Below, piece after piece: positions 5,829 to 38,795 of a stretch of DNA of 38,795 nt (positions are counted from its first letter, which is position 1; every line of letters begins with the position of its first letter). Position numbers and translations under genes: made by a program. Below the pieces are notes generated by a model. The model had not been told where the DNA came from. It worked only from the letters and a program-made list of their open reading frames with translations, and did not search any database. The DNA lies in contig JAKEEG010000069.1 in the NCBI GenBank assembly GCA_022616555.1, positions 1-38,795 on the forward strand, in the 5' to 3' direction. Source of the DNA: Ignavibacteriota bacterium (lineage in GTDB: Bacteria; Bacteroidota; Ignavibacteria; UBA10030).

Positions 5829-5830
5829 TA

Positions 5831-6935: not shown

Positions 6936-6965
6936 CAATTGTTCTCAGTTGTTTCTTATCTACAC

Positions 6966-10116: not shown

Positions 10117-10133
10117 CACTGATTTTTTTTGGC

Positions 10134-10161
10134 TTGACTTTCGTTAAATTTGGGTTAAATT
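10134..10161 (+). promoter_or_regulatory. Possible sigma70-type promoter with paired GTTAAATT repeats
   Basis: TTGACT (10134-10139) lies 16 bases upstream of TAAATT (10156-10161), an acceptable but weak -35/-10 pair. The octamer GTTAAATT occurs twice, at 10143-10150 and 10154-10161, exactly 11 bases apart, which could be an operator occupying one face of the helix. Confidence 0.4.
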
Positions 10162-10166
10162 AAGGG

Positions 10167-10246
10167 CTGACCAAGACAACAGTTCTTCCCCTGACTGTTG
10201 TTTATTGAGGTCAAGCCCGGCGTTCCCCCCAGCGCTGGGCTTTTTG
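10167..10246 (+). ncRNA. Candidate small RNA or attenuated leader between lolD and the DUF3098-like gene
   Basis: A start about six bases after the putative -10 would give a transcript of roughly 80 bases with two structures. The first has an outer stem TGACC/GGTCA (10168-10172 with 10209-10213) around an inner stem ACAACAG/CTGTTGT (10176-10182 with 10195-10201). The second is an intrinsic terminator ending in five T at 10241-10245. It could be a free-standing sRNA or an attenuated 5' leader of the gene at 10275. It matches no RNA family I recognise. Confidence 0.35.
10214..10246 (+). terminator. Rho-independent terminator or attenuator
   Basis: AGCCCGGCGTT (10214-10224) pairs with AGCGCTGGGCT (10231-10241) across a six-C loop, with two G-T wobbles, followed by TTTTTG. 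It lies 29 bases before the next start codon, so it either ends the lolCDE transcript or controls the downstream gene. Confidence 0.75.
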
Positions 10247-10274
10247 TTCCATCAAGAGTTTGAAAGGAAACGAT

Positions 10275-10577
10275 ATGGCACGTGATGTTCACAAGCCGGC
10301 GGCAAAACGGGGCTCAGGTAAAGATAGACTCCCGTTTACGAAAACGAATTATCAAATATTGGCTGTCGCACTTCTTGTCATAGCTGCAGGATATGTCGCT
10401 CTAGCTCAGGCGCCGTGGGATGGTTTTCTTCCTCTGGTTGTGGCACCCATTCTTTTGGTTACCGGCTACTGCATCCTCGTGCCATTTGGGATACTCTACC
10501 GCAGTAAAAAGGAGCGCGATGTGAATGGAGCTTCGAGCGAAAGCGATTCGACTCCGTCAAATGCCGCAGCGTCTTGA
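10275..10577 (+). CDS. Small two-helix membrane protein, DUF3098-like
   Basis: A 100-residue protein with a basic N terminus, then LPFTKTNYQILAVALLVIAA and a second hydrophobic helix at about residues 57-78 (PLVVAPILLVTGYCILVPF). A short Ser/Glu-rich cytoplasmic tail follows. The F-x-x-x-N-Y start into the first helix and the AP-x-x-L-x-x-G second helix resemble the Bacteroidetes DUF3098 family, often encoded beside ftsX or envelope genes; here an FtsX-like Lol system is just upstream. AAAGGAAA at 10263-10270 supports the ATG at 10275. No biochemical function is known to me. Confidence 0.65.
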   Translation: MARDVHKPAAKRGSGKDRLPFTKTNYQILAVALLVIAAGYVALAQAPWDGFLPLVVAPILLVTGYCILVPFGILYRSKKERDVNGASSESDSTPSNAAAS

Positions 10578-10600
10578 AAATCCGCTTCATTTTTTGTACC

Positions 10601-10629
10601 TTGAGTGATAGAGCCGATTTGTGGATAAA
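10601..10629 (+). promoter_or_regulatory. Probable promoter of tRNA-Lys
   Basis: TTGAGT (10601-10606), a 17-base spacer and GATAAA (10624-10629) lie just upstream of the tRNA at 10645. The -10 match is only partial. Confidence 0.4.
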
Positions 10630-10644
10630 AAGGATTTACTTGGC

Positions 10645-10716
10645 GAGCGTGTAGCTCAGTGGTAGAGCATCTGCCTTTTAAGCAGAGGGTCGATGGTTCG
10701 ATCCCATCCACGCTCA
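10645..10716 (+). tRNA. tRNA-Lys (anticodon TTT)
   Basis: A complete cloverleaf. The acceptor stem is GAGCGTG with CACGCTC (10709-10715) and the discriminator is A. The D arm is GCTC/GAGC and the anticodon stem TCTGC/GCAGA encloses CTTTTAA. The T arm GATGG-TTCGATC-CCATC is intact. CCA is not encoded and must be added after transcription. It decodes AAA and AAG. Confidence 0.96.
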
Positions 10717-10737
10717 CAAAGCAGTAAGAGGTACATT

Positions 10738-10817
10738 GTTATTAGTTCTTTGTTTAACAACGTTGAAGTTGTTAGAATTATTGTTCCCTCGATGACGATA
10801 AGCAAATAACTAATAAC
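10738..10817 (+). repeat. Nested inverted repeat in the spacer between the two tRNAs
   Basis: GTTATTAGTTCTTTG at 10738-10752 is mirrored by CAAATAACTAATAAC at 10803-10817 (14 of 15 positions complementary). Inside it a second hairpin, TAACAAC/GTTGTTA (10755-10761 with 10768-10774), has a six-base loop. It could be a processing structure of a two-tRNA transcript or a small palindromic repeat element; copies elsewhere cannot be tested here. Confidence 0.55.
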
Positions 10818-10823
10818 CAACCA

Positions 10824-10907
10824 GCCCGGATGGTGGAACTGGTAGACACACCGTCTTGAGGGGGCGGCGCCCGTTAGGGCATGCGAGTTCAAGTCTCGCT
10901 CCGGGCA
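10824..10907 (+). tRNA. tRNA-Leu (anticodon GAG)
   Basis: An 84-base class II tRNA. The acceptor stem is GCCCGGA with TCCGGGC (10900-10906) and the discriminator is A. The anticodon loop is TTGAGGG, closed by CCGTC/GGCGG, so the anticodon is GAG, reading CTC and CTT. A long variable arm (CGCCC-GTTA-GGGC) follows, as expected for leucine, then a T arm with GTTCAAGTC. CCA is not encoded. Confidence 0.95.
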
Positions 10908-10950
10908 CTAATGTCAGTTCTCTTTTGTTCAATTAGATGGAGGGTTAATT

Positions 10951-11718
10951 ATGAGATGGATTTTACTACTTCTGGCTGTGGTTGTTGCAACCTCGTTGAG
11001 CTTTGCGCAATCTACAGCGGGAACTGAACAAAATGTCGAAGCCGACAAACTGTACAACGAAGGGAATGCGTTGTACCGTGCAGGAAATTATGCCGGCGCA
11101 ATTGAAAAGTACAACGCGGCCTTGGTGCTTGCCAGGGATTACAAGTATTATTACCAGCTTGGCATTTCCTATAAGAATAGCCGTCAGCTTGATCTGGCAA
11201 TTTCTTCATTGTTGGAATGCGTCAAAGCGAAACCAGATTTTGCCGCTGGCCATCATGCCCTTGGCGGTACTTACCAAACGAGAGGTGAATACGATAAGGC
11301 GATTACTTCGTTTAAAGAGGCTATTAAGCTCAACCCTTCCTATGCACCGTCGAAAAAAGGCATTGAGGAAGCGTACGCTGGAAAAATCCAAGAGCTTGCT
11401 GATGCAGGAAAATACGAAGAGGCGGCGACTCTGGCGGACGAAGCGCTGGACACATACAAGGATAATGCGAAACTGTACCTGTTAGCAGCGCGCGTTTACA
11501 ACCGAATGGCACTCCCGGAGAAAGCCATCGAGGCAGCTCAGCGCGCCCTTACGTTGAAAACACGGGGAGGAAAAGGACCGGAGTTTTTTGAGATTGGAAT
11601 GGGCTATAAGCAGATGAAGGATTGGGCGAAAGCGCGCGCCGCGTTTAACGAAGCGCGTAAGGATCCCCAATATGCTCGTAATGCCCAATACGAGCTTGAC
11701 GGCATGAAGGGGCGATAA
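10951..11718 (+). CDS. Exported TPR-repeat protein
   Basis: A 255-residue protein with a signal peptide (MRWILLLLAVVVATSLSFAQ, cleavage likely after the FAQ region; no lipobox), followed by tandem tetratricopeptide repeats. Clear units begin at about residues 32 (ADKLYNEGNALYRAGNYAGA), 66, 100 (GGTYQTRGEYDKAITSFKEA), 134 and 168, with a final unit near 212. TPRs are protein-protein scaffolds, so a periplasmic or outer-membrane assembly role is plausible, but nothing in the sequence identifies a partner. GGAGGG lies eight bases upstream of the ATG. It is followed by a good terminator. Confidence 0.85.
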   Translation: MRWILLLLAVVVATSLSFAQSTAGTEQNVEADKLYNEGNALYRAGNYAGAIEKYNAALVLARDYKYYYQLGISYKNSRQLDLAISSLLECVKAKPDFAAGHHALGGTYQTRGEYDKAITSFKEAIKLNPSYAPSKKGIEEAYAGKIQELADAGKYEEAATLADEALDTYKDNAKLYLLAARVYNRMALPEKAIEAAQRALTLKTRGGKGPEFFEIGMGYKQMKDWAKARAAFNEARKDPQYARNAQYELDGMKGR

Positions 11719-11743
11719 CTGTTTCCATGTATGGTTTATCATG

Positions 11744-11769
11744 AAGGGCGAGTCTATCGCCCTTTTTTA
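11744..11769 (+). terminator. Rho-independent terminator after the TPR gene
   Basis: The 8-bp stem AAGGGCGA/TCGCCCTT (11744-11751 with 11757-11764) has a five-base loop and continues into TTTTATTTCTT. Confidence 0.85.
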
Positions 11770-11785
11770 TTTCTTCTACCGTCCT

Positions 11786-12364
11786 ATGACTAAACGCGAA
11801 AAATCCTTCATCCTGATAGCATCCTTATATGCGTTGAACCGGCGAAACGAAGTTCCAGCCATCCTTCATCGGATGAAAGTGCCCCATAGGCATCTTGTTG
11901 AGTTGTTCCTCCATTTGTCGCTTCTGCTGGGCTTTCCAGCAATGTTGGACGGGTATGAAAAATTGTCTTCCTTGAATCTTCTTCCGAGGTCTTCTCAACA
12001 CCGTCTCGCGTTTCACAACAATCGAACAAGGGGGCTTCGCGCTTTACGGAGAGTTTACGGCTCGCAGACGGATAAACTGCTCTCATCTCTTGAAGCTATG
12101 TTCCCGGGGCTATCTACAATGATTGTGGAGGATGTTTACGGTAAGGTAATTGCAAGGCGGGGATTGACTCTGAGGGAACGTGAATTGGTGAATATTGCCG
12201 TCTTAACGATTCAAGGGCTGAACCGACAGCTGCACTCACATGTGCGAGGAGCGATAAGAGTCGGAGTTTCACCGACAACTCTCCGTTCCGCACTGCGGCT
12301 GCTAGGAAAGCGATTCCGAGTAAGGACCCGCGTAGCGGAAGAACTACTCAGCCAGCTTACATAG
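11786..12364 (+). CDS. Carboxymuconolactone decarboxylase-like (AhpD-superfamily) protein without the CxxC motif
   Basis: A 192-residue, mostly helical, basic protein. The C-terminal half (RGLTLRERELVNIAVLTIQG, then LNRQLHSHVRGAIRVGVSPT) is a good match to the CMD fold. The N-terminal half (KREKSFILIASLYALNRRNE, then HRHLVELFLHLSLLLGFPAM) looks like a diverged first copy of the same helices. The protein contains no cysteine, so the CxxC peroxidase chemistry of AhpD is impossible. It may be a non-redox CMD enzyme or a binding protein. I chose ATG 11786 because the open frame further upstream lies in the terminator. Its function is unknown. Confidence 0.7.
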   Translation: MTKREKSFILIASLYALNRRNEVPAILHRMKVPHRHLVELFLHLSLLLGFPAMLDGYEKLSSLNLLPRSSQHRLAFHNNRTRGLRALRRVYGSQTDKLLSSLEAMFPGLSTMIVEDVYGKVIARRGLTLRERELVNIAVLTIQGLNRQLHSHVRGAIRVGVSPTTLRSALRLLGKRFRVRTRVAEELLSQLT

Positions 12365-12372
12365 TTGTTTGA

Positions 12373-12401
12373 TTGACTTTCAAAAACAGAACTCGTACTA
12401 T
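12373..12401 (+). promoter_or_regulatory. Sigma70-type promoter of the acylphosphatase gene
   Basis: TTGACT (12373-12378), a 17-base spacer and TACTAT (12396-12401) form a good promoter. Transcription should begin about 12408, only a few bases before the ATG at 12413, and there is no Shine-Dalgarno, which suggests a leaderless message. Confidence 0.6.
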
Positions 12402-12412
12402 TATTAATAATT

Positions 12413-12685
12413 ATGGATGTCGGAGCTCGTATTATTGTGAGGGGGCTGGTGCAGGGTGTCGGATTCCGCTATTTTGTGTTGCGCCATGCCTCTACGCTTG
12501 GATTAAGCGGATACGTACAAAATACATATAATGGAGACGTTGAGATTGAAGTTGAGGGAAGCCGATCCTTGGTAGAAGAGCTCATTAAAGAAGTAAAAGC
12601 CGGTCCGCGCTCTGCCCATGTGTCCGACGTAAAAATCGAATGGAAAAGCCCGGAACAGAGCTTTCATGGTTTTGAAATTCGTTAA
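12413..12685 (+). CDS. acyP: Acylphosphatase
   Basis: A 90-residue enzyme that hydrolyses acyl phosphates such as acetyl phosphate. The signature GLVQGVGFRYFV is at residues 11-22, with the phosphate-binding Arg19. The catalytic Asn37 lies in GYVQNTYNGDVEIEVEG. Length and layout match the small single-domain family. A good promoter lies so close that the mRNA may have almost no 5' leader. Confidence 0.95.
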   Translation: MDVGARIIVRGLVQGVGFRYFVLRHASTLGLSGYVQNTYNGDVEIEVEGSRSLVEELIKEVKAGPRSAHVSDVKIEWKSPEQSFHGFEIR

Positions 12686-12738
12686 CCCTTCAGTTGTTCC
12701 TCCCATTGTCAGCTGTACTTGTTTTTGAAAGGTGACCG

Positions 12739-13242
12739 TTGAAATTTCTACTAAGCAGTCCACGTGTGGGCTTCGGATACGATATTCATAAATTCACGCC
12801 CGGGCGAAAATTCATGCTCGGTGGAGTGCGGATTCCATATCACCAAGGATTGCTTGGCCATTCAGACGCCGACGTTCTCCTTCACGCTATCTGTGACGCC
12901 TTACTAGGAGCTGCGGGATTGGGCGATATCGGCAAGCATTTTCCCGATACGAGTAAGAAGCTTAAAAATGCTTCCAGCATTAAATTGCTTGAAAGCGTAA
13001 AGAAAATATTAGCCAAAGAGGGCTATGAAATTGTCAATGTGGATTCCACTGTTGTTTTGCAGTGGCCGAAAATCTCTCCATATTCATCTCGCATGATTAC
13101 GAAAATTGCTAGCTCGTTAAAAATAAAGAAAAACTGTGTCTCGGTAAAAGCAACGACGAATGAAGGTTTGGGGTTCCTTGGCAGGGGGGTAGCATGCGCG
13201 GCTTATGCCGTTGCCTCGATTCGGCGCATTGATCAAGAGTAA
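12739..13242 (+). CDS. ispF: 2-C-methyl-D-erythritol 2,4-cyclodiphosphate synthase
   Basis: The fifth step of the MEP pathway to isopentenyl diphosphate, forming the cyclic diphosphate with release of CMP. The 167-residue protein has the metal ligands Asp15 and His17 (GYDIHKF, isoleucine where valine is usual) and His49 (DADVLLHAICDALLG). It also has the DIGKHFPDT segment and the C-terminal TTNEGLGFLGRG. The start is TTG, supported by AAAGGTG at 12728-12734. No ispD partner is adjacent. It is followed after five bases by the DedA gene. Confidence 0.95.
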   Translation: MKFLLSSPRVGFGYDIHKFTPGRKFMLGGVRIPYHQGLLGHSDADVLLHAICDALLGAAGLGDIGKHFPDTSKKLKNASSIKLLESVKKILAKEGYEIVNVDSTVVLQWPKISPYSSRMITKIASSLKIKKNCVSVKATTNEGLGFLGRGVACAAYAVASIRRIDQE

Positions 13243-13247
13243 ACAAA

Positions 13248-13868
13248 GTGGAACAAATTGTACAAGAACTTACGTCGTTAAACCCGCTGTGGGTGTATGT
13301 TGCCGTCGCCGGTATAGCGTATATTGAGAATATTTTTCCTCCGTTCCCCAGTGATGTGATCGTTGTTGCCGCTGGTTCGCTGGTTGGCATTGGCACGATA
13401 GACTTTTCATTGGCGCTGGTACTGGCAACCGCGGGGAGCACGTTGGGTTTTGCAACAATGTATAAGTTGGGCGATTGGTTCGGGGATAAAATCCTTGAAA
13501 CGGGAAAAATCAAATTCATTCCTATTGAGAGTGTGAAAAAAGTGGAGGTATGGTTTCAGAAATACGGATACGGGTTGATTATCGCCAACAGGTTTATGGC
13601 TGGAACACGCGCAGTCGTTTCTTTTTTTGCGGGATTGTCCGAGCTCGCGTTTGCGAAAACAGTCATTCTGTCGTTTTTCAGCGCCTTGGCTTGGAACGCC
13701 ATCCTTCTGTACGCCGGGAAGGCGCTCGGACAAAATTGGCGCGAAATTGCCTCCTATCTTGAAACGTATAGTCAGATTGTTACCGCAGTGATTTCGATTG
13801 TCCTTATTGCTGTGGTCATTCGTTGGTTTCTTCGGAAGAAAACATCGACGGAACCATCCTCTCACTAA
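13248..13868 (+). CDS. DedA/VTT-family integral membrane protein
   Basis: A 206-residue multi-span inner-membrane protein of the DedA (SNARE-associated/VTT) family, members of which are linked to phospholipid or undecaprenyl-phosphate flipping. It shows the re-entrant loop acid and prolines (YIENIFPPFPSDVIVVAAG), the glycine-rich GSTLGFATMYKLGDWFG, and the NRFMAGTRAVVSFFAG motif with its key arginine. The start is GTG at 13248, five bases after ispF, with no obvious ribosome binding site. Its position just before a PAP2 phosphatase suggests a shared role in lipid-carrier recycling. Confidence 0.88.
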   Translation: MEQIVQELTSLNPLWVYVAVAGIAYIENIFPPFPSDVIVVAAGSLVGIGTIDFSLALVLATAGSTLGFATMYKLGDWFGDKILETGKIKFIPIESVKKVEVWFQKYGYGLIIANRFMAGTRAVVSFFAGLSELAFAKTVILSFFSALAWNAILLYAGKALGQNWREIASYLETYSQIVTAVISIVLIAVVIRWFLRKKTSTEPSSH

Positions 13869-13883
13869 CCACGAGTATACTGC

Positions 13884-14486
13884 TTGGCAGATTTTCTTTA
13901 TTCAATCGACCGCGCTCTTTTTTACTTCATCAATCACACACTGCAAAATCCGTTGTTCGATTTGGTGATGCCGGTGCTTACCGACTTGAATAAACAGCCG
14001 GTCGCTATTGTTATTTTCGCGTTGCTTTGGCTCTTACTCCTTGCGAAGGGAGGAAGAGCGGGAAGAATAGCAGCCTTGCTGCTCATCCCGACAATATATT
14101 TTAGTGACCAATTGAACAGTACATTTCTCAAGCATATATTCGACCGACTTCGTCCTTGCCATGCGTTGGAGGATGTTCATATTCTCGTTCCGTGCGGCAG
14201 CGGATTTTCTTTCCCCTCATCTCATGCAGTCAATAACTTTGCGGCTGCTATTGTGTTGGCGTTCTATATCCCAAAGGGAAAATGGTGGTTTTACTCGTTT
14301 GCTGCGGCGATGGCATTTTCGCGACCGTATGTTGGAGCACACTATCCATCAGATATTCTCGTTGGTTCTGTTGTGGGGGTCGGATGTGGTGCACTGATCA
14401 TTTTTCTGTATTCTCAAATCGAAGCGTGGTGGAAGCACCGTAATGCTCCTATTGAGGAAGCGTCGAAGGATGAGGCTGAAACATGA
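13884..14486 (+). CDS. PAP2-family membrane phosphatase
   Basis: A 200-residue integral membrane phosphatase of the PAP2 type. The three catalytic motifs are all present: KHIFDRLRP, the central FPSSHAVNNF and SRPYVGAHYPSDILVG. Membrane helices flank them. Such proteins dephosphorylate undecaprenyl diphosphate or phosphatidic-acid-type lipids; which applies here is not clear, though proximity to DedA and lnt favours envelope lipid metabolism. The start is probably TTG at 13884 (LADFLYSIDRALFYF). No other start gives a full first helix, and there is no good Shine-Dalgarno. The stop overlaps the next ATG (ATGA). Confidence 0.88.
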   Translation: MADFLYSIDRALFYFINHTLQNPLFDLVMPVLTDLNKQPVAIVIFALLWLLLLAKGGRAGRIAALLLIPTIYFSDQLNSTFLKHIFDRLRPCHALEDVHILVPCGSGFSFPSSHAVNNFAAAIVLAFYIPKGKWWFYSFAAAMAFSRPYVGAHYPSDILVGSVVGVGCGALIIFLYSQIEAWWKHRNAPIEEASKDEAET

Positions 14487-16135
14487 ACATCACCCGCCGC
14501 TCGCGGATTAGTCTCGCAGTTCTCTCAGGGACTTTGTTGGGACTGGCGTTCCCGCCTTCGCCGCTGTACTCTGCCGCGTACGTCGCGCTGGTTCCGTTTC
14601 TTTTCCTTATGGAACGGTTGGAAAACTATAAACAGGTGGTATGGTATTCGTACCTCATGACGTTTGTGTTTCACTTGTTTTCGCTGTACTGGATTGGCGG
14701 CTTTACCCACGGACGCGATCCGTACTTAATGGCATCTGGTGCAGCTGTGATAATTTTGCATCCGCTGTTCTACTGGATTATTTTTATCCCATATTTTTTT
14801 ATACGGAAGCATGGTGGTGTACTTATTGGGTTGTTTTCATTCCCCTTTTTGTGGATTTCTTTCGATTATTTACATTCACTTTCAGAAGTATCATTTCCCT
14901 GGGTATCGCTCGGAAACAGTCAGGCATACGACTTGTACCGTATTCAGATAGCGGAGTACACGTCTCTCCACGGTCCCGCGTTTGTCGTCTTACTGTTTAA
15001 TGTTCTGGCGTTTATACTGTTAATTCAATTGGCGTCGAAATCCTGGAAGTTTTCTTCTCGAGAATCGGTGTTAACCTTTTTCGTGTTGTTGCTTGTGTAT
15101 TTGCTTCCGTTGTTTTATGGCAGAATGGTTGTAAGCAATCGTGAGATCCCTTCAAATGAAGAAAGAATTAACGTTGGGATTGTCCAACCCGATATCGATC
15201 CCTGGAAAAAATGGGGGGAGGGTGTTACCTCGCGATGGGAATATTATCAATCGCAGGTCAAATTACTACAAGAGAAAAGCGCTGAGCTTATAAATAACGA
15301 TGCGGAATTAATCGTATGGCCTGAGACAGCCATTCCGTTTGAGATTCTTTCGCCTCGGTATCAGTCCAATCGCTCTGAACTTTTGCAGTATATTGATACT
15401 CTCGGCGTTGCTATTTTTACTGGATTGCCGGCAGCGGAGGTATTTGATTCGACAAATGCTCCAGTAACAGCAATAAGGGTCCGCAACAGCAGCGTCTTCG
15501 TTGATTATTACAACTCTGCAACTTTGCTTGCGCCAGACAGTGTAGGACCAGTGTATAAAAAAGTCGTACTCGTGCCATTCGCAGAACGTGTACCCTACGC
15601 GGAACGCCTTTCGTTTCTTATCGAGCCGCTCAAATGGAGTGTTGGCATTAGTGGTTGGGGAAAAGGAGAAGAGCAGATTGTTTATTTAGCTACGACAAAG
15701 TCAGGGACTCAACTGAAGTTTTCAGGTATGATTTGTTATGAATCGGTTTATCCTGATTATGTGCGTGGATTTGTTGATCGGGGAGCACAGTTCCTCGTTG
15801 TTATAACGAATGATAGTTGGTGGGGGAATACATCGGGAGTGTACCAACACATTGCGTACGCATCGTTTCGAGCAATTGAAAACCGCCGATGGGTTGTTCA
15901 GTGTGCGAACGGCGGCATCTCGGCATTTGTCGATGACCTCGGAAAAATCCACCTCTCCACGGAAATGTACACTCCTGCCGCTGTTGTTAGTAGCGTTATG
16001 CCGTTAAAGGAAATGACGTTTTATGCGAAGCATGGAGATGTGTTCGCTCAAGTTTGTTTGTATTGCTCCTTACTATTGCTTATCATAGCTCTGTGGAAAA
16101 AAATGACTCCAAGAACTGAAGTGAGCACAGAATGA
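14483..16135 (+). CDS. lnt: Apolipoprotein N-acyltransferase
   Basis: The inner-membrane enzyme that adds the third acyl chain to lipoproteins before Lol-dependent export. The N-terminal half is a set of membrane helices (residues about 10-210). A periplasmic nitrilase-type domain follows, with the catalytic triad Glu281 (WPETAIPF), Lys360 ([14 protein letters not shown]) and Cys418 ([11 protein letters not shown]). A last helix precedes the C terminus. At 550 residues it is a normal length. It overlaps both neighbours by four bases. Its product is a substrate for the lolCDE system in the same window. Confidence 0.94.
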
Positions 16136-17175
16136 GCTCAAATAACTATATCGACCTGCGCAGCGATACTGTCACTCGCCCTACACCCGCTATGCGAAAA
16201 GCAATGGCGGATGCGGTTGTTGGAGACGATGTGTATGGCGAAGACCCGACTATAAATCGATTGCAAGAGAAAGTTGCTAAGCTTTTAGGCAAAGATACAG
16301 CCCTGTTCGTTCCTTCGGGTGCGATGGGAAACCAAATCGCGATCAAAACGCACACACAGCCGGGAGATGAAATTATCGCCGAGAGTGGTGCTCATGTTTT
16401 TAATTATGAGACTGCCGCCCCCTCGTTTATTTCACAGGTGCAAGTTCAGACAATTCCCGGCAAACGAGGTGTTTTACGTGTCGAAGACCTTGTGCCTGCT
16501 GTTCGTTCCAGCGCGTATTACATGCCCCGCACATCGTTGGTATGTTTGGAGAATACACACAATAAAGCCGGTGGAACGATTTATCCGCTGGACGAAATCA
16601 AAAAAATTCGTGCGTTTACGCACGAGCGAAAACTCGCGCTTCATTTGGATGGGGCAAGATTGTGGAATGCTTCAGTGGCGACCGGTGTCAGCCCAAAAGA
16701 ATACTCGAAGTATTTTGACTCAGTCGCTGTTTGTTTTTCGAAAGGCTTGGGTGCGCCTGTCGGCTCAGCATTGGCTGGGACGAAGGAGTTCATTGAACGA
16801 GCGCGAAAGTACCGAAAAATTCTCGGTGGTGGGATGAGGCAAGCGGGTGTTATCGCGGCCGGGGCACTCTATGCGCTTGAACATCATATCGACCGACTGA
16901 AGGAAGACCACGAGAAAGCCAAAGTTTTTGCCGAAACACTATCTTCCGTCAATGGGTTGGAAATTGATCAGGAAGCCGTGCAAACAAACATTATCATAAT
17001 AAATGTCGGTAAGACCGGCAGATCACCGGCACAAATTTTAGAAGCATTACGGAAAAAGAAAGTTTTGCTCGTTGAAATGAGCTACACCGCCATCAGGGCG
17101 GTAATGCATATGGATGTAACGTTCTCCCAAGTGAAAGAAGCTGCTGGAATTATCAAAGCATTGTTTAAGGCTTAG
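16132..17175 (+). CDS. ltaE: Low-specificity L-threonine aldolase
   Basis: A PLP-dependent enzyme splitting threonine (or allo-threonine) to glycine and acetaldehyde. The 347-residue protein has the typical N terminus [19 protein letters not shown] and the [10 protein letters not shown] segment. [11 protein letters not shown] carries the PLP-binding aspartate, and the Schiff-base lysine is Lys204 in [12 protein letters not shown]. Its ATG overlaps the lnt stop (ATGA), so it is translationally coupled to lnt, although no functional link is evident. Confidence 0.93.
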
Positions 17176-17179
17176 GCAA

Positions 17180-17644
17180 ATGGATAAATTGCTTTTTAAA
17201 CATAGGGCTCAAGTGCGTGTGAGGAATTACGAGGTAGACTGGCAGGGTATTGTGCATAACGCAAATTATCTTTTATACTGTGAAGTAGGCCGCATAGAAT
17301 ATTTCAAGCACATTGGGCTTGCGGTTGATATGCAGTCAATTACCGGCTCATCAAAAATTGTCCTGGTGAGGAATGAGATAGATTATAAATTGCCCGCCCG
17401 TTTTGATGACCTCCTCAACATCTTTACGCGAGTTTCGTTTATCAAGAATACAAGTTTTGGTGTTGAAGGAATCTTGGAGCGGGAGGGGACAGGCGAAATA
17501 ATTGCGGAAAACATCGCCTATCATGTTTGGCTTGACCCTTCAACTGATCGGCCTGTCAGTGTGCCGGAGCATTTTCGTGGAATAGTCCGAAAATTTGAGG
17601 GCGCCAATTGCGAAATCCTTCAGCTAAAAGTTTTTAACACGTAA
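17180..17644 (+). CDS. Hot-dog acyl-CoA thioesterase, 4-hydroxybenzoyl-CoA thioesterase/YbgC type
   Basis: A 154-residue single hot-dog domain. The active-site segment VRNYEVDWQGIVHNANYLLY has the catalytic aspartate (Asp20) in the D-x-x-G-I-V-x-N pattern of this thioesterase class, followed by EVGRIEYFKHIGL. The conserved VVRNEIDYKLPARFDD-like strand is also present. The substrate is uncertain; YbgC-type enzymes act on short or branched acyl-CoA or acyl-ACP. It starts four bases after the aldolase stop. Confidence 0.85.
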   Translation: MDKLLFKHRAQVRVRNYEVDWQGIVHNANYLLYCEVGRIEYFKHIGLAVDMQSITGSSKIVLVRNEIDYKLPARFDDLLNIFTRVSFIKNTSFGVEGILEREGTGEIIAENIAYHVWLDPSTDRPVSVPEHFRGIVRKFEGANCEILQLKVFNT

Positions 17645-17663
17645 CGTTGGAAAATACTTCGTC

Positions 17664-19166
17664 ATGACGTCCTTTGAAGAATTTAAGAAGCTGAGTTCGG
17701 GTGGAAATGTCATTCCCATCTTTGAGACTGTGCTCGCAGATACGGAAACACCCGTTTCGGTGTATTTAAAGATTCAAGGTGAAAGCGCCTACTCATTTCT
17801 ATTGGAAAGCGTCGAAGGCGGAGAAAAGCTCGGCCGGTATTCATTTATCGGCTTTAACCCTTTTATGAATGTTACAATTCGTGAGAAACGTTTCTCCATT
17901 GAAACATTTCACGATGATGTAAAAATACTTCCCTCGCTTGTTGATCCGGATGACCACCCGCTTGAAGCCCTCAAAAAACTTTTCGCTCACATTAAGACCG
18001 TCAAAGTGCCTGGGTTGCCTCGTTTTTCCTGTGGAGCGGTTGGCTACTTTGGATATGAAACAGTGCGACTGGTGGAAGATATTCCCGTTCCAGCCAAAGA
18101 TGAGCTTGAAATACCGGACTCGATATTGATGTTTTTTGATGTTGTCCTCGTTTTCGATAACGTTAAGCATGAATTGTTTTTGATCTCAAATGCTTATCTT
18201 TCTAAGCCAAATCTCACCGATGCTGAGCTGAAGAAAGAATACGATAAAGCTGCCGGAGAAATCGAAAAGCTTAAATCTCTGCTTCAGAATGATATGCCGA
18301 CAGCTCTTGCAAACGCCGAGTCGAACGGCAAGCTTGAATATATAGTCAGCAAAGAAAACTTTTGTAAAAGCGTTGAGCGTTCAAAGCAATATATTGTCGA
18401 AGGTGATATTTTTCAGGTGGTGTTGTCTCAACGCTTAAAACAAAAAGCCCGTGTCCGTCCCATCGATGTGTATCGGTCGTTGAGGCTTATTAATCCTTCG
18501 CCATATATGTATTTTTTGAGCCTTAAGGATTTTTTCGTCATTGGTTCTTCACCGGAAATGCTTGTGCGAGTTGAGAACGGTATTGTGGAAACACGCCCGA
18601 TTGCCGGCACGCGTCGTCGAGGAAATTCAACTGAGGAGGATGAGCGATTAGTGCAGGAGTTACTGGATGATGAGAAGGAAAAAGCAGAACATCTTATGTT
18701 GGTGGATTTAGGTCGGAACGATTTGGGACGTATCAGCGAGTATGCTACTGTTGAAGTAAAGCAATTTATGGCGACAGAAAAATACTCGCACGTAATTCAT
18801 ATTGTCTCAAGTGTCCAGGGAAAATTACGCGATGGATTGACGCCTCTCGATGCGCTATTCTCCTGTTTTCCTGCCGGCACTCTTACCGGCGCACCCAAGA
18901 TTCGGGCAATGCAGATTATTTCCGAGCTTGAACCAGTAAAGCGCGGAGTCTATGGAGGTGCGATTGCGTATCTCGATTTTTCCGGCAACATGGATTCTTG
19001 CATCGCGATTCGCACTATTGTCGCAAAAGAAGACACATTATTTTTCCAGGCTGGAGCAGGTATTGTGTATGATTCAAAACCAGAACGCGAATTTGAGGAG
19101 ACGATAGAAAAGCTTGGGGCAAATTTGCAGGCCGTTGAGCGATTGAAAGAAATTGTCAGACAGTGA
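17664..19166 (+). CDS. trpE: Anthranilate synthase component I
   Basis: The 500-residue chorismate-binding subunit that makes anthranilate for tryptophan. The N-terminal LLESVEGGEKLGRYSFIGF carries the feedback-site LLES motif, so inhibition by tryptophan is likely. The C-terminal catalytic domain has VVLSQRLK, RPIAGTRRRG, LVDLGRNDLGRIS, FPAGTLTGAPKIRAM and GGAIAYLDFSGNMDSCIAIRT, all typical of TrpE. The start at ATG 17664 has a weak GGAAAA upstream. trpG follows after three bases, but no other trp genes are in the window. Its chorismate supply connects it to aroA about 10 kb away. Confidence 0.95.
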   Translation: MTSFEEFKKLSSGGNVIPIFETVLADTETPVSVYLKIQGESAYSFLLESVEGGEKLGRYSFIGFNPFMNVTIREKRFSIETFHDDVKILPSLVDPDDHPLEALKKLFAHIKTVKVPGLPRFSCGAVGYFGYETVRLVEDIPVPAKDELEIPDSILMFFDVVLVFDNVKHELFLISNAYLSKPNLTDAELKKEYDKAAGEIEKLKSLLQNDMPTALANAESNGKLEYIVSKENFCKSVERSKQYIVEGDIFQVVLSQRLKQKARVRPIDVYRSLRLINPSPYMYFLSLKDFFVIGSSPEMLVRVENGIVETRPIAGTRRRGNSTEEDERLVQELLDDEKEKAEHLMLVDLGRNDLGRISEYATVEVKQFMATEKYSHVIHIVSSVQGKLRDGLTPLDALFSCFPAGTLTGAPKIRAMQIISELEPVKRGVYGGAIAYLDFSGNMDSCIAIRTIVAKEDTLFFQAGAGIVYDSKPEREFEETIEKLGANLQAVERLKEIVRQ

Positions 19167-32648: not shown

Positions 32649-33290
32649 ATGTCCGATCAGGTTTCACAGGAAGTAAACAACCAACCTGCAGCAGAAGCCG
32701 TAGCGCAACAGGCTCCCAAGCCTGCGTCGCCGCAGATTTCTCCGTCGCCGTTGCCGCGCAAACCTAAACAAGACCGTCCGCCCGAGGGCGACCCTGGCAT
32801 TTGGCGCTTAAGCCGACGCAATCTTCTGACGCTTGCAGGTTGGATGGGTTTTTTCGGCTTCATCATCGCTTCGACGATCGGCTCGCTGCGTTATATGTTC
32901 CCGCGTGTGTTGTTTGAGCCCCCCATGAAATTTAAAGCTGGCTCACCAAGTGAGTTCACCATCGGCGAAGTCAGCGAACGATTCAAAGATGAAAAGCGTG
33001 TGTGGATTGTACGCGAGCGCGAGGGGTTCTATGCGCTGATTTCCATTTGTACACACCTCGGCTGCACGCCGCGTTGGCTCCCCTCCGATAATAAATTCAA
33101 ATGCCCCTGCCACGGCAGCGGCTTTTACAAAACGGGAATGAACTTCGAAGGTCCCGCTCCGCGCCCGCTCGAGCGCGCGTACGTCGGCATTGCAGACGAT
33201 GGGCAACTGGAAATCGACAGAAGCATTAAATTTCTATATGAAAAAAATGAGTGGACCAAGCCGGGTGCTTTTTTGAAGTATACAGGGTAA
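32649..33290 (+). CDS. Rieske [2Fe-2S] iron-sulfur subunit of a bc-type complex
   Basis: A 213-residue membrane-anchored Rieske protein. After a Pro/Ala-rich N-terminal stretch of about 45 residues comes a twin-arginine sequence (LSRRNLLTLAGWMGFFGFII) leading into one membrane helix, suggesting Tat export. The cluster motifs are CTHLGC (Cys134, His136, with Cys139) and CPCHGSGF (Cys152, His155, with Cys154), the last pair of cysteines forming the usual disulfide. It takes the first electron from quinol at the Qo site. It lies 12 bases before cytochrome b. Confidence 0.93.
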   Translation: MSDQVSQEVNNQPAAEAVAQQAPKPASPQISPSPLPRKPKQDRPPEGDPGIWRLSRRNLLTLAGWMGFFGFIIASTIGSLRYMFPRVLFEPPMKFKAGSPSEFTIGEVSERFKDEKRVWIVREREGFYALISICTHLGCTPRWLPSDNKFKCPCHGSGFYKTGMNFEGPAPRPLERAYVGIADDGQLEIDRSIKFLYEKNEWTKPGAFLKYTG

Positions 33291-33302
33291 TGGAGATTGC
33301 CA

Positions 33303-34070
33303 ATGTTTGACCAGCTCAAGAAAACAGAAGTCTATAAATCGATATTCAGGCATTCGTATCAGGACACGCAGCGCAACCGTGCTCTGCAGATTGTCGATAA
33401 CGTCTTCCTGCATCTGCATCCTGTCCGAGTGCCACGCCATGCAACAAACCTGAGTTACACGTGGGGGATGGGAGGAATAACGTTTTTGCTATTCCTTATC
33501 CTTACGATTACCGGCGTGATCCTGATGTTCTACTATCGTCCGACAGCGCAGTATGCGTACGAGGATATGAAGTATCTGATGAACGACGTTCCGTTCGGTC
33601 CATTGATTCGCAACATGCACCGGTGGGCAGCTCATGCGATGGTGCTGACCGTCATGCTGCACATGTTCCGCGTGTTTCTCACAGGCTCGTACAAACCTCC
33701 GCGGCAATTTAACTGGGTCGTGGGTGTACTTCTTCTTGTGCTCACACTGCTGTTGAGTTTCTCTGGCTACTTGCTGCCGTGGGATCAGCTTTCCATTTGG
33801 GCTGTTACCGTCGGCACAAACATGGCGCGCGCGACTCCCTTGCTTGGACACGAGGGCCCACTTGGTCCGGAACTTGGGATGAGAATCGATAACGACGTCC
33901 GCTTCGTGTTGCTCGGCGGTACAGAGGTCGGTCCCCCGACGCTGCTTCGGTTTTATGTCGGTCATTGTATTTTCCTGCCGCTCATCGCGGTGATATTTAT
34001 GGCGGTACATTTCTGGCGCGTACGCAAAGACGGCGGCATCTCGGGTCCCGAAGCCGCAAAAAAGATATAA
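33303..34070 (+). CDS. Cytochrome b6-like subunit (N-terminal half of cytochrome b)
   Basis: A 255-residue integral membrane protein with four helices carrying two b haems. The ligands are His106/His120 (MHRWAAHA and [10 protein letters not shown], spacing 14) and His221/His236 (VGHCIF and [16 protein letters not shown], spacing 15). The 14/15 spacing is as in b6f complexes. The position of the cysteine that binds the extra c-type haem in b6f proteins is glycine here (GMGGIT), so that haem should be absent. ATG 33303 is preferred to TTG 33297 because GGAGA lies six bases away. The partner half is the next gene. Confidence 0.92.
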
Positions 34071-34079
34071 GGCGATCGC

Positions 34080-34982
34080 ATGGGTCAATTTCTAGAAATT
34101 CTTTCGAAGCCCGACAACATTCCAATCGTGTTGTTGTTGCTCTCCGTTATTTATTTTACCTGGCTCTACTGGGTGAAGGCGAAGAGGAACGACATGGCAA
34201 CCGTACCAGTCGAGGCGACGCAAGACGATAAGGTTCAGGTCTGGCCCTATCTGGTGCGCATTGAATTTTTGATGACAATCGCCATCATGGCGGTGATGGT
34301 CGTCTGGTCGATAGCACTCGATGCTCCATTGGAGGAGCCGGCGAACCGCGCACTGACGCCGAATCCGTCAAAAGCTCCATGGTACTTTCTTGGCTTGCAG
34401 GAGTTGCTCGTGTATTTTGACCCGTGGATTGCAGGCGTCGTATTGCCGACACTCATCATCGTCGGGTTGATGGCGATTCCGTATGTCGACATCAACGAAA
34501 AAGGGAACGGGTACTATACCTACAAAGAGCGCAAGTTTGCCGTCCTGACGTTTGGGTTCGGCTTCCTTATTATGTGGGTGGCGTTGATTGTGCTTGGAAC
34601 ATTCTTGCGCGGCCCGGGATGGAACTTCTTTTGGCCCGGAGAAGTGTGGGACCCGCACTATGTTGCCGTGTTGACGAACGTCGACTTGTCCGAGTATTTT
34701 GGCATTACCACGCGTATGCCTGATAATTCGCTCAACCCACTCGCGTTTATTTTTGGTGCTGTGTGTGTCGGCGGATTTTACTCCCTTGGTGTACTGTACT
34801 GGATCAAAAACCGCAACACTGATCTGATGCAGAAATTAGGACTCGTGCGATACAGCGTCGTCTCGTTCTTGTTTCTTTCGATGGTTGGGGTTGTGATAAA
34901 AGTTATTTTACGTTTGCTCCCGACGGCGTTTGGGTTGAACCCTGTAAAATACGTTTGGGTCACGCCCTGGTTTAACGTGTAA
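34080..34982 (+). CDS. Cytochrome b subunit IV-like protein (C-terminal half of cytochrome b)
   Basis: A 300-residue membrane protein forming the second half of cytochrome b, including part of the quinol-oxidation site. The Qo motif is APWY at residues 99-102 (KAPWYFLGLQELLVYF) instead of PEWY, so the proton-accepting glutamate is replaced by proline. It is longer than b6f subunit IV (about 160 residues) and has additional C-terminal helices (about 218-245 and 258-285), as in some extended bc complexes. A short N-terminal helix precedes the conserved region. It starts nine bases after the b6-like gene. Assignment is firm; the effect of the motif change on catalysis is not known from sequence. 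Confidence 0.88.
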   Translation: MGQFLEILSKPDNIPIVLLLLSVIYFTWLYWVKAKRNDMATVPVEATQDDKVQVWPYLVRIEFLMTIAIMAVMVVWSIALDAPLEEPANRALTPNPSKAPWYFLGLQELLVYFDPWIAGVVLPTLIIVGLMAIPYVDINEKGNGYYTYKERKFAVLTFGFGFLIMWVALIVLGTFLRGPGWNFFWPGEVWDPHYVAVLTNVDLSEYFGITTRMPDNSLNPLAFIFGAVCVGGFYSLGVLYWIKNRNTDLMQKLGLVRYSVVSFLFLSMVGVVIKVILRLLPTAFGLNPVKYVWVTPWFNV

Positions 34983-35008: not shown

Positions 35009-37654
35009 ATGCCCGAAGAAAAACCCAATATACCAGTAGAGCAAAAAGATTACAGCAAGCTCTATCTCATTTTTAGCGCCATCCTGTTTCTCGGCACCGC
35101 GTGGGCTGTGTGGGACGAGGTGAAGGTACGCCGTCCGTGGAAGGACTATCAAGAAGGCTACCAACAGCTTCTTGTCGAGCATTTGGACTCGCTTCGTGCT
35201 GCAGCTGAAAGTGAATTGGACAGCGCGACAGTCGTTGATTTGAACGCTCAACGGGATAAGGCAGTTGCCGACCTGCAGTCAGAGGAATACCAGGAAGCTG
35301 TTTCTCAAAAAAACGTATTGCTAAAAGACCTTGATCTCGCTACTCGCGAATGGCGCTTTGCGCGCAGCCGCTCCGATGCAGCTTACTACTCTTATCAAAA
35401 GGCAATGCTCGAAGGGGGCGACGCTGCTTCGGCGAAAGCGGAAGTTCAAAAACACGAAGACGATATCGCTGATTACGCGAAGGAGATTGAGAGCCTCAAT
35501 GCCAAGATTGCGGAGCTTGATGTTACCATCAACAAGTATAACGATCAAGTAGAGAAGCTGAACGCTGAAATCACGGGGATGTTTGCGACGATCAATGCAC
35601 ATACATTGAAATTGGAGCGCACGCGTGAGATGCCGATTGCCATTCGTCAGGTGATGCTGAACGATTACGAGTTTACGCCATTCCAGGAAATCAAAGCGCG
35701 CATTGACCGTTGCCAGACTTGCCATGCAGGCTGGGCTGAGCCGTTGATGGCGGACGCGCCTCAGCCGTACACTCAGCACCCGTTGCCTGAATTGCTCTCG
35801 AAACACAATCCTGAATCGTTTGGTTGTACGCCATGTCATCGCGGACAGGGTCCAGCGCTTACCGCCGGCTTCGCTCACGGTGACGACGACCACTATTGGG
35901 AGACTCCGATCTTGCGCGGCATCGATGTCTATGCGACATGCAATTCCTGCCACGTGAACGAGACGGTGCTGAAGTACGCAGCACCGTTTACCAAGGCAAA
36001 GCAGATTATCCTCGATTCTGGTTGTAACGGTTGTCATAACATCAAAGGTTTTGAGGAAGCGCCAAAGATCGGCCCGCCGTTGAACTCCCTTCCAAAGAAA
36101 GTCCAAGCTGACTGGCTTTTCCGGTGGGTGCGCAATCCAAAGGATTACAACGAGCATACGCGCATGCCGAACTTCAAGCTTTCCAACGAGGAAGCTGAAG
36201 CTATCACGGCGTTCTTGATGGATGTTGGAAAGGATGCGGAGTTCCAGTTTACTCGTTCTCGTGGTTCGTATGCAGGCGGAAGCAGTGCGCGTGGCAAGCT
36301 GTTGTTTGAATCGGTGGGTTGCCAAGCCTGCCATACTGTTGGAGATGAGCAGACGGTCCGCACGAATCGTGCGTTGACCTTTGACATTGCGCCTGAGTTG
36401 ACGCGCGTCGGGAGCAAGGTTTCGGCAGATTGGATGTTTGACTGGATTAAGAATCCGCGTCACTATAATCCCGAAACGCGCATGCCGAGCTTGCGGCTGA
36501 CCGACGACGAGGCTCGGAACATCGTGGCCTATCTCAACACATTGAAAGATACGCGCACGTTTGAACGCACTGCGCTTGACCTCAACAATCCGGACAAGAT
36601 CAAATTTGGCGATAAGCTTGTGCGCGACTACGGATGCTTCGGCTGTCATGCCATCAAAGGCACTGAGAACGAAGGCAAAGTGAGTGTTGATCTTTCCGAC
36701 TTTGGACGCAAGAAGTACGAACAGATGGATTTTGGCAACACACATGAGTTGTCGCACGACGACACAACAGAGTACCAAGAGAATTCCGACGGCACCGTTT
36801 CTGTGAAACACTCATGGGCAGGTTGGGTGTACGGCAAGTTGAAGAATCCGCGGTTGTATGAAACAGAGCGCATCCCGCAACGGATGCCGGTGTTCACGTT
36901 CAACGACGAAGAGATTCGGCTCATCCGCATGTTCCTGACAAGCATGACGAAGGATGTGCCGGTTGCAAACTACCAGCACAATTTCAACAAGAGGCAGCAA
37001 GAAATCGAAGCCGGCAGGCGTTTGACACAATACTATAATTGCATTCAGTGCCATGAAATGGAAGGGCGCGGTGGGTATATCCTGACCAAGTATGAAGAAG
37101 AAGCCATGGGTCCGCCGAAGATTTTCGAGAGCCAGGGCGCGAAAGTGCAAGAGCCGTGGCTGCACGAGTTCTTGCAGGGCCCGACGACCATCAGGCCATG
37201 GCTGGATATCCGTATGCCGACGTTCAACCTGACGGACGCGGAGATTTCGACGATAACGAAGTATTTCCTTGGCACATCCAAGCAGGAGCTGATGATCCGC
37301 GATTACGCGGCGACGCCAATCGATAGCAAGTATCTTGCGCCGGGCAGGCAGTTGTTTGACGCGTACCAGTGCGCGAAGTGTCATCCCGCGGGACGAGTAT
37401 CGAGCGATGAAGTATCCGCATCCGACCTCGCTCCGAACCTGACCATGGCGGCAAGTCGGTTGAAGCCCGAATGGATTTTGAGCTGGCTGCACGACCCGCA
37501 GGCATTGCAGCCGGGCACGCGTATGCCGGCATATTTCTATGAGGGCAAGGGACCCGATGAGTCTGTGTTCGACGGAGTTGAGACTGAGCAAATTAAAGCG
37601 CTGAGGGCGCATGTGTGGAGTCTCGGACGCCAGCGAAGCACTGCGAGTAAGTAG
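35009..37654 (+). CDS. Membrane-anchored coiled-coil octahaem c-type cytochrome
   Basis: An 881-residue protein with one N-terminal membrane helix (about 18-37), a long periplasmic coiled coil (about 50-215) and eight CxxCH haem sites at residues 235, 273, 311, 339, 438, 543, 678 and 788. The last five are each followed by an RMP motif whose methionine (386, 492, 626, 736, 839) is a likely sixth ligand, so they form five class I-like monohaem domains in tandem. The first three form a tight cluster. It follows subunit IV by 26 bases and is presumably the electron-output subunit of the complex. I know no standard bc cytochrome c with this combination; the role is inferred. Confidence 0.85.
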   Translation: MPEEKPNIPVEQKDYSKLYLIFSAILFLGTAWAVWDEVKVRRPWKDYQEGYQQLLVEHLDSLRAAAESELDSATVVDLNAQRDKAVADLQSEEYQEAVSQKNVLLKDLDLATREWRFARSRSDAAYYSYQKAMLEGGDAASAKAEVQKHEDDIADYAKEIESLNAKIAELDVTINKYNDQVEKLNAEITGMFATINAHTLKLERTREMPIAIRQVMLNDYEFTPFQEIKARIDRCQTCHAGWAEPLMADAPQPYTQHPLPELLSKHNPESFGCTPCHRGQGPALTAGFAHGDDDHYWETPILRGIDVYATCNSCHVNETVLKYAAPFTKAKQIILDSGCNGCHNIKGFEEAPKIGPPLNSLPKKVQADWLFRWVRNPKDYNEHTRMPNFKLSNEEAEAITAFLMDVGKDAEFQFTRSRGSYAGGSSARGKLLFESVGCQACHTVGDEQTVRTNRALTFDIAPELTRVGSKVSADWMFDWIKNPRHYNPETRMPSLRLTDDEARNIVAYLNTLKDTRTFERTALDLNNPDKIKFGDKLVRDYGCFGCHAIKGTENEGKVSVDLSDFGRKKYEQMDFGNTHELSHDDTTEYQENSDGTVSVKHSWAGWVYGKLKNPRLYETERIPQRMPVFTFNDEEIRLIRMFLTSMTKDVPVANYQHNFNKRQQEIEAGRRLTQYYNCIQCHEMEGRGGYILTKYEEEAMGPPKIFESQGAKVQEPWLHEFLQGPTTIRPWLDIRMPTFNLTDAEISTITKYFLGTSKQELMIRDYAATPIDSKYLAPGRQLFDAYQCAKCHPAGRVSSDEVSASDLAPNLTMAASRLKPEWILSWLHDPQALQPGTRMPAYFYEGKGPDESVFDGVETEQIKALRAHVWSLGRQRSTASK

Positions 37655-37740: not shown

Positions 37741-37788
37741 TAGTAGTGTAGTTCCTCGATCGATCATTTTCAAATAAAGGAGTGCATG

Positions 37789-38478
37789 ATGAAGAGAATT
37801 CTATGTTCCATTGCGATGCTGGGGATTTCCTTTTGTGCATTGGCAGGGGATGTGACCGGCAAAGTTTCGTTTGACGGCAAAGCTCCCGCAGCTGCACGGC
37901 TCAGGATGGATGCCGACAAAATCTGTGCCCGCGCACATAAAGCTCCCGTAATGGGTGAGGACGTTGTTGTGAATAAGAATGGTACCTTGAAGAACGTGCT
38001 GATTTATGTCAAAGATGGCCTCGGCGGCAAAAAGTTCGACGCTCCGAAAGACAAGGTTGTCTTCGACCAAGAAGGCTGTGTGTACGATCCTCACGTACTT
38101 GGCATCATGGTCGGGCAGACGCTTGAAGTCCTGAACAGCGACCCAACGCTTCACAACGTACATTCGCTTTCGAAAGCCAACACACAATTTAACCAGGCGA
38201 TGCCGATGAAGGGCATGAAGCTGACGAAGACGTTTGACAAGGTCGAGACGTTCAAAGTGAAATGCGAAGTGCACCCGTGGATGGGCGCGTACATCGGCGT
38301 GTTCAATCACCCATACTACGCGGTAACGGACGATAACGGCAACTTCACGATCAAAGGGCTGTCGGCGGGAACGTACACGCTCGAAGCGTGGCACGAGAAA
38401 TACGGCACGCAGACGATGAAGGTCACCGTCGACGCATCCGGCAAAGCGACTGCCGATTTCAAGTATTCTGGAAAGTAA
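37789..38478 (+). CDS. Secreted amicyanin-like cupredoxin with a carboxypeptidase-regulatory-like domain
   Basis: A 229-residue periplasmic protein with a signal peptide (MKRILCSIAMLGISFCALAG). A blue-copper domain follows with likely ligands His122 (TLHNVHS), Cys159, His162 and Met165 in CEVHPWM. The short Cys-x2-His-x2-Met loop equals that of amicyanin (CTPHPFM). The C-terminal part (YYAVTDDNGNFTIKGLSAGT) is a carboxypeptidase regulatory-like beta-sandwich. Its place between the octahaem cytochrome and cytochrome oxidase suggests an electron shuttle between them. Start at 37789 is favoured by AAAGGAG at 37776-37782; ATG 37786 is an alternative. Confidence 0.85.
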   Translation: MKRILCSIAMLGISFCALAGDVTGKVSFDGKAPAAARLRMDADKICARAHKAPVMGEDVVVNKNGTLKNVLIYVKDGLGGKKFDAPKDKVVFDQEGCVYDPHVLGIMVGQTLEVLNSDPTLHNVHSLSKANTQFNQAMPMKGMKLTKTFDKVETFKVKCEVHPWMGAYIGVFNHPYYAVTDDNGNFTIKGLSAGTYTLEAWHEKYGTQTMKVTVDASGKATADFKYSGK

Positions 38479-38506: not shown

Positions 38507-38795
38507 TTGAGTCATGTAGCCGCTGCTGAGCATGGCATTCATGCTGCCGGACATCAAGAAGAGGAGCTAAGTTTTTGGCGGAAGTATGTATTCTCCCAGG
38601 ACCACAAGGTCATTGGGTTGCAATACATGTTTACCGCGCTGGTGTTTCTCTTCATCGGCTTTTCATTGATGATGCTGATGCGCTGGCAGTTGGCCTATCC
38701 CGGAAAGCCTCTCCCTGTGACGCCGTTCGTCGGGTTCCCGGCGCTGATCGGCGTCGTACTGTTGCTGCTCAGCGGCTTCAAGCGATACCTCGTGA
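38507..38795 (+). CDS. coxA: Cytochrome c oxidase subunit I, N-terminal part (3' end cut by window)
   Basis: About 96 codons of a haem-copper oxidase catalytic subunit are visible. After a His/Ala/Glu-rich N terminus comes the family pattern YVFSQDHKVIGLQYMFTALV, the first membrane helix, and MMLMRWQLAYPGKPLP, then the second helix as the window ends. The start is TTG at 38507, supported by AAAGGAG six bases upstream. The haem and CuB ligands lie beyond the window, so the subtype cannot be decided. Gene order places it after the bc-type complex and cupredoxin as terminal electron acceptor. Confidence 0.88.
   Translation, partial: MSHVAAAEHGIHAAGHQEEELSFWRKYVFSQDHKVIGLQYMFTALVFLFIGFSLMMLMRWQLAYPGKPLPVTPFVGFPALIGVVLLLLSGFKRYLV

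Follow-up and report, generated by a model that had tools for sequence, protein, structure and literature searches.

The 881-residue octahaem cytochrome c encoded at positions 35009..37654 of the window (the whole 38,795-nucleotide stretch of Ignavibacteriota DNA analysed here; all features given here with start..end coordinates lie on its + strand) is probably the high-potential, electron-collecting c-subunit of a b6f-like menaquinol oxidase, in which a long coiled coil would act as a clasping hairpin and from which electrons would pass to an aa3-type oxidase. The assignment of the gene draws on its open reading frame, its motifs, Pfam matches and an alignment of orthologues.

The earlier note on this DNA had proposed a protein with a three-haem cluster and five duplicated monohaem domains, and the motif positions it gave are exact in the ORF: CxxCH occurs at residues 235, 273, 311, 339, 438, 543, 678 and 788, and RMP at residues 385, 491, 625, 735 and 838. 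All 16 cysteines of the protein fall inside CxxCH motifs; shuffled proteins of the same composition contain a mean of 0.01 such motifs (maximum one). The eight motifs are invariant in 21 orthologous sequences, as are Met386, Met492, Met626, Met736 and Met839 and the non-motif histidines His257, His266 and His290. The first two of these histidines are invariant across all relatives compared, whereas only the short octahaem group (described below) lacks His290. Since three invariant histidines and five invariant methionines supply exactly the number of distal ligands required, we infer that the subunit carries three bis-His haems, with His257, His266 and His290 as candidate ligands within the three-haem cluster (35681..35968; CxxCH 235, 273 and 311), and five His/Met class I haems. 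The ligand count would be hard to account for by any other haem assignment.

The five His/Met haems lie in consecutive monohaem domains: D4 (35984..36238; CxxCH 339, Met386), D5 (36278..36556; CxxCH 438, Met492), D6 (36590..36958; CxxCH 543, Met626), which contains a loop insertion, D7 (36998..37279; CxxCH 678, Met736) and D8 (37328..37630; CxxCH 788, Met839). All five were delimited by conservation and self-alignment, with the addition of Pfam matches for D4, D5 and D7 and of comparison with relatives for D8. PF00034 matches four stretches of the protein (E 1.6e-34). When aligned with each other the units score well above shuffles (D4/D5 z ~38, D5/D8 ~27, most other pairs 7–19), D6/D8 only barely so (2), and a profile-profile comparison of D4 with D5 gives E 8.6e-33; the same self-alignment finds no similarity between the three-haem cluster and the five C-terminal units (z 0.8–3.9). 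The equal repeat spacing anticipated for such domains holds from each Met to the next CxxCH (52, 51, 52 and 52 residues), but not from CxxCH to CxxCH (99, 105, 135 and 110), the distance between CxxCH and Met ranging from 47 to 83 via loop insertions. In a single-domain tree most units fall together with their positional counterparts from the other lineages, the tree covering Ignavibacteriales, Chlorobia and short octahaem proteins (with moderate support for several groups, D7 and D8 dividing by lineage), which makes the duplications mostly older than the split of these groups. The five class I domains appear, then, to be the product of old tandem duplication.

An octahaem protein might instead be a catalytic reductase, of the nitrite, hydroxylamine or tetrathionate type. 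Beyond the number of haems, this reading can call on the relatives in which Met839 is replaced by Glu (as EPN or EPV), namely Chlorobia, the short octahaem group and one further locus (together L035–L037, L053, L093–L097 and L099); the substitution could leave the eighth haem with an open or unusual site. In the window protein, however, every one of the eight haems has an invariant distal candidate, and for five of them that candidate is Met, at odds with the multi-bis-His core of octahaem reductases. The haem domains match Pfam Cytochrom_C and CBB3 families, with no octahaem reductase family among the Pfam and NCBIfam matches. We consider a reductase highly improbable and an electron-collecting c-subunit, with haems that likely conduct electrons, the better description. 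Searching solved structures with the octahaem protein returned only weak single-domain matches, and AF2 modelling of the full-length protein from five input sequences gave a mean pLDDT of 38 and a pTM of 0.28 (pLDDT ~30 in the haem domains).

The octahaem gene is the last of a four-gene operon whose conserved first gene encodes a Rieske [2Fe-2S] subunit (32649..33290; 213 residues, one N-terminal membrane helix; PF00355, E 5e-10). Its motifs, CTHLGC and CPCHGSGF, follow the CTHxGC and CPCHGS patterns seen in the window and relatives alike. Between these genes stand two separate ORFs: (i) a four-helix cytochrome b6-type subunit of 257 residues with two His pairs, 14 and 15 residues apart (33297..34070; PF00033, E 7e-46), 83–94% identical among orthologues, and (ii) a 300-residue subunit IV with extra C-terminal membrane helices (34080..34982; PF00032, E 3e-5). 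Alignments agree with the Pfam assignment of all three partners. Every orthologous locus in which the upstream genes are visible has the same order, Rieske–b6–subunit IV–octahaem. Judging from its nearest named relatives, the window comes from an Ignavibacteriales genome; the genome-collection scan yielded Ignavibacteria only. The octahaem c-subunit has no cytochrome f match in Pfam or NCBIfam, which sets the complex apart from cytochrome b6f complexes in the strict sense. In place of the PEWY motif of the Qo site, the window and all aligned relatives read APWY. The Qo motif varies among menaquinone complexes, so APWY is compatible with the wider Rieske/cytochrome b class. The octahaem protein is thus not a wire standing on its own: it belongs, as c-subunit, to a complex of Rieske protein, b6 and subunit IV whose genes neighbour those of an aa3 oxidase.

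Several further observations concern the surrounding DNA and the quality of the assemblies. Positions 2283–32039 of the window hold housekeeping genes, among them a class II tRNA synthetase, a peptide release factor, FtsX-type permeases, apolipoprotein N-acyltransferase, an anthranilate synthase component, NusA, IF-2, PNPase, EPSP synthase and BshC (bacillithiol). The octahaem gene is spread over three frames in one relative (G016, a genome 69% complete) and the Rieske gene over two ORFs in another (G060); both are probably sequencing or assembly errors. On contig C31 of the window's own genome, positions 43000–57327 and 68000–82327 are identical but run in opposite orientation, with the midpoint at half the contig's length (125326); this suggests a perfectly palindromic contig, which probably arose in assembly.

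The octahaem subunit is probably held in the membrane by an N-terminal anchor helix (35060..35116; hydropathy peak at residues 18–36), which is followed by an invariant RRPWK. Across the 21 orthologous sequences, E11, Y15, Y19, W32, D36, E37, R41, R42, P43, W44 and K45 do not vary. A cleaved signal peptide at this N-terminus was considered and is ruled out by the many invariant residues in and after the helix, which agrees with the retained membrane helix of the earlier note.

Between the anchor and the haems lies a coiled-coil module (residues 45–207; 35141..35629), with AF2-predicted helices at residues 41–69, 72–88, 92–135 and 139–207. The coiled coil had been predicted beforehand, and it stands: residues ~41–207 are modelled as helical, with pLDDT 85–97 over residues ~55–200, and helix 139–207 has a hydrophobic period of 3.5 residues (equalled in strength by three of 500 shuffles). 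In residues 92–134 the period peaks at 3.45, short of significance. Its length is 163 residues in all but one of the 21 orthologous sequences, the exception having 164. From the anchor Trp to the first haem there are 191–195 residues in Ignavibacteria and two same-class relatives and 185 in Chlorobia, as against 39 in coil-free short octahaem proteins and 41–47 in coil-free pentahaem proteins. Because the anchor motif and three-haem cluster are common to all of these relatives, with and without the coil, the coil is an insertion, nearly constant in length and apparently gained once. The cytochrome b tree places all coil-bearing complexes in a single clade (SH-aLRT 97) with the short octahaem group as its neighbour, to be read with caution as the inner branches joining the groups are long.

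Helices 92–135 and 139–207 form an antiparallel hairpin in the predicted model. Structural alignment superposes it on prefoldin beta (95 residues, 1.9 Å), the designed hairpin TMHC2_E (93 residues, 1.7 Å) and the seryl-tRNA synthetase arm (85 residues, 1.3 Å). The PDB entries that the coil matched (type III translocator, Tc toxins, PspA, prefoldin; Z ~10) are generic coiled coils, from which we read no function.

The shape of the hairpin bears directly on an earlier proposal, in which the coil, stretched out as a spacer, carries the haem domains across the periplasm as part of a wire to the cell surface or outer membrane. The segment is indeed long, helical and charged, and the first helix, of ~55 residues (15–69), is predicted to reach well past the membrane. 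Yet homologues with the same anchor and haem cluster do without the coil, which is moreover predicted to fold back on itself: in an antiparallel hairpin the ends come back together, and in a chain whose ends are otherwise ~40 residues apart the haems would therefore not be lifted off the membrane. Nor was any outer-membrane porin or surface cytochrome recognised in the clusters, where the neighbours are the oxidase and its assembly genes. A spacer is, in our estimation, improbable. Most likely, judging from a single evolutionary event and from analogy, the hairpin clasps the complex on the side of the Rieske protein and subunit IV. In alignments of the coil-bearing clade, subunit IV is also lengthened by additional helices at its C-terminus and the Rieske protein by a longer C-terminal tail, which fits a hairpin touching these subunits. 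A published model of a Kuenenia complex shows a multihaem subunit whose long helices wind around the Rieske protein, together with a five-helix subunit IV (PMC12954380).

Downstream of the octahaem gene, the window encodes a secreted cupredoxin-like protein with a carboxypeptidase-regulatory-like domain (37786..38478; Pfam) and the type 1 copper pattern CEVHPWM, followed by the start of haem-copper oxidase subunit I (38507..38795), cut by the contig end. The last 101 bases of the window are identical to the end of contig C18 of the same genome, where the oxidase continues with the rest of subunit I, subunits III and IV, subunit II with the CuA motif CAQLCGLGHYRM, and the assembly genes CtaA and CtaB. 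The cupredoxin neighbours the octahaem gene in 18 orthologous clusters, with C..H..M kept in all. The arrangement cupredoxin–CoxA–CoxC–...–CoxB directly follows the octahaem gene in 18 of 23 judgeable Ignavibacteriales genomes (a count that leaves out one genome whose contig ends too early). In the other five (four from one family, one from another) there is no oxidase next door, and none adjoins any Chlorobia octahaem locus seen. These oxidase-free loci count against our main reading in its simplest form, and the oxidase is therefore not the sole possible acceptor.

We propose the following path. Quinol, probably menaquinol, would be oxidised at the Qo site as in other members of the family, with the Rieske cluster receiving one electron and the low-potential b haems the other. 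The Rieske cluster would reduce the octahaem subunit, which replaces cytochrome f or c1. Electrons would then travel through the three-haem bis-His cluster near the membrane and on through the five His/Met haems, if the invariant residues are indeed their ligands, and the operon suggests that they would leave for CuA of the adjoining aa3-type oxidase, either directly or via the intervening cupredoxin. The helical hairpin between anchor and haems would meanwhile clasp the complex on its Rieske and subunit IV side. One difficulty is that bis-His haems are usually of low potential, so that the first step from the Rieske cluster could be uphill.

Eight haems far exceed what a path from Rieske to CuA needs, and their number is unchanged in clusters without a nearby oxidase. 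Both points would suit a role for the five His/Met domains mainly as an electron reservoir (a capacitor) that buffers quinol oxidation against oxygen supply. A directed path is a better match for the operon shared with the oxidase in most Ignavibacteriales, and for a weak match of D8 to 2yev_B, a caa3 oxidase subunit II that carries a fused cytochrome c domain. A mainly capacitive function is accordingly unlikely in our judgement, though storage and directed transfer are compatible with each other.

The genome of the window also encodes a separate alternative complex III and a second oxidase: on contig C9 (positions 4231–17800 of locus L103), a five-haem protein and a molybdopterin-type ActB belonging to alternative complex III lie beside a second haem-copper oxidase. 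The octahaem complex would be one of two quinol-oxidising routes in this genome, alternative complex III and its oxidase forming a parallel route from quinol to oxygen. Outside these clusters no small class I cytochrome c was found in the genome by PF00034 or PF13442; the remaining matches to these families are two copies of a three-haem protein and one two-haem protein.

Outside Ignavibacteria, complexes with a coil-bearing octahaem subunit are present in 33 of 86 Chlorobiaceae genomes, and one Chloroherpetonaceae-like genome has such a complex too, with the same module set and operon partners. The members tested carry the FMO protein of green sulfur bacteria, from which we assigned these family names in part. 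A fused cytochrome b of ~390–440 residues is also present in five of five coil-bearing green sulfur genomes examined, making the octahaem complex a second complex in these genomes; three Chlorobiaceae genomes checked that lack the octahaem complex have the fused cytochrome b only. Green sulfur octahaem loci (L093–L097 and L100) adjoin genes for a monohaem cytochrome c and a cupredoxin.

In actinobacterial III–IV supercomplexes, QcrC, the multihaem c-subunit of complex III, passes electrons to CuA without a soluble cytochrome c. QcrC has two haems and a different architecture from the octahaem subunit, to which its family, NF050122, is a weak match, and it is gene order that hints at a supercomplex here. 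We offer tentatively, and with less conviction than the electron path above, the stronger possibility of an obligate III–IV supercomplex, in which a hairpin-clamped eight-haem chain takes the place of cytochrome f as well as of soluble cytochrome c and plugs directly into CuA; green sulfur bacteria would have co-opted the same clamped complex as an additional Rieske/cytochrome b complex.

The closest coil-free complexes are those of Ignavibacteriales with a short octahaem (~650 residues) or pentahaem (~400 residues) c-subunit. They share with the window a homologous anchor, the three-haem cluster, tandem monohaem domains and Rieske/cytochrome b partners, but lack the coil, have a shorter or fused subunit IV and include a gene for an NAD(P)H oxidoreductase in the cluster; as noted, the short octahaem group has Glu in place of Met839 and has lost His290. 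The oxidoreductase (Pyr_redox_2, Fer4_20, Fer4) is present in 16 of 17 coil-free loci in Ignavibacteriales and, within the DNA examined, in none of 31 coil-bearing loci; none lies between the Rieske gene and the oxidase in the window. Among relatives, hairpin and NAD(P)H module are mutually exclusive. Complexes of the coil-free kind (L035–L049, L053 and L054) resemble the proposed bifurcating complexes of Kuenenia, outside anammox bacteria. That such close relatives carry the oxidoreductase, with its Fer4 domains, is what would recommend a complex that drives NAD(P)+ reduction by bifurcation, as proposed for Kuenenia; given its absence from the coil-bearing loci and the window, there is very little chance that this is the function here, and we retain a menaquinol oxidase that feeds an oxidase.

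Octahaem b6f-like operons have been reported before. In 2013 a Rieske operon with a split cytochrome b and, next to it, an atypical octahaem cytochrome was described in Nitrospina gracilis, Kuenenia and Methylomirabilis (PMC3578206), and its gene set—Rieske, b6, subunit IV and no adjoining c-subunit other than an octahaem c—is that of the window, the likeness being one of gene content and description. Those operons belong to nitrite oxidisers, anammox bacteria and NC10; the part of the source available to us does not describe a coil, a haem order or a link to an oxidase. The Kuenenia complexes Kustd1480–1485 and Kuste4569–4574, in which a hexa- or octahaem c replaces cytochrome f (PMC12954380), similarly have a b6-like cytochrome b, an extended subunit IV and a multihaem c-subunit. 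They differ in carrying NAD(P) oxidoreductase modules, where the window and its coil-bearing relatives are adjoined by an aa3 oxidase or by nothing recognisable. Related b-type, membrane and c-type subunits occur in selenite/tellurite reduction operons, with all three matches under the curated cut-offs (ExtP 285.7 bits, cut-off 290; ExtQ 59.8, cut-off 150; ExtS 70.7, cut-off 100) and ExtS a shorter lipoprotein. A study of respiration in Melioribacter roseus describes alternative complex III only and mentions no Rieske protein (PMC5492636). Our literature search, which had most subscription journals outside it, found neither the coil, nor the oxidase-linked form, nor the second complex of green sulfur bacteria. 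We take as new the hairpin, the joint operon with an oxidase, the second complex found in 33 of 86 green sulfur genomes, and the observation that hairpin and NAD(P)H module exclude each other.

Accounts of respiration in Ignavibacteria usually feature alternative complex III, to which the b6f-like octahaem complex would add a second route, mostly with an aa3 oxidase of its own. Members of the family differ in having five or eight haems, in the presence of the hairpin, and in carrying an NAD(P)H module or an oxidase, a natural series along which the use of electron bifurcation can be compared. Finally, the family brings to light a second Rieske/cytochrome b complex, one that is open to a knock-out test, in over a third of the genomes of green sulfur bacteria.
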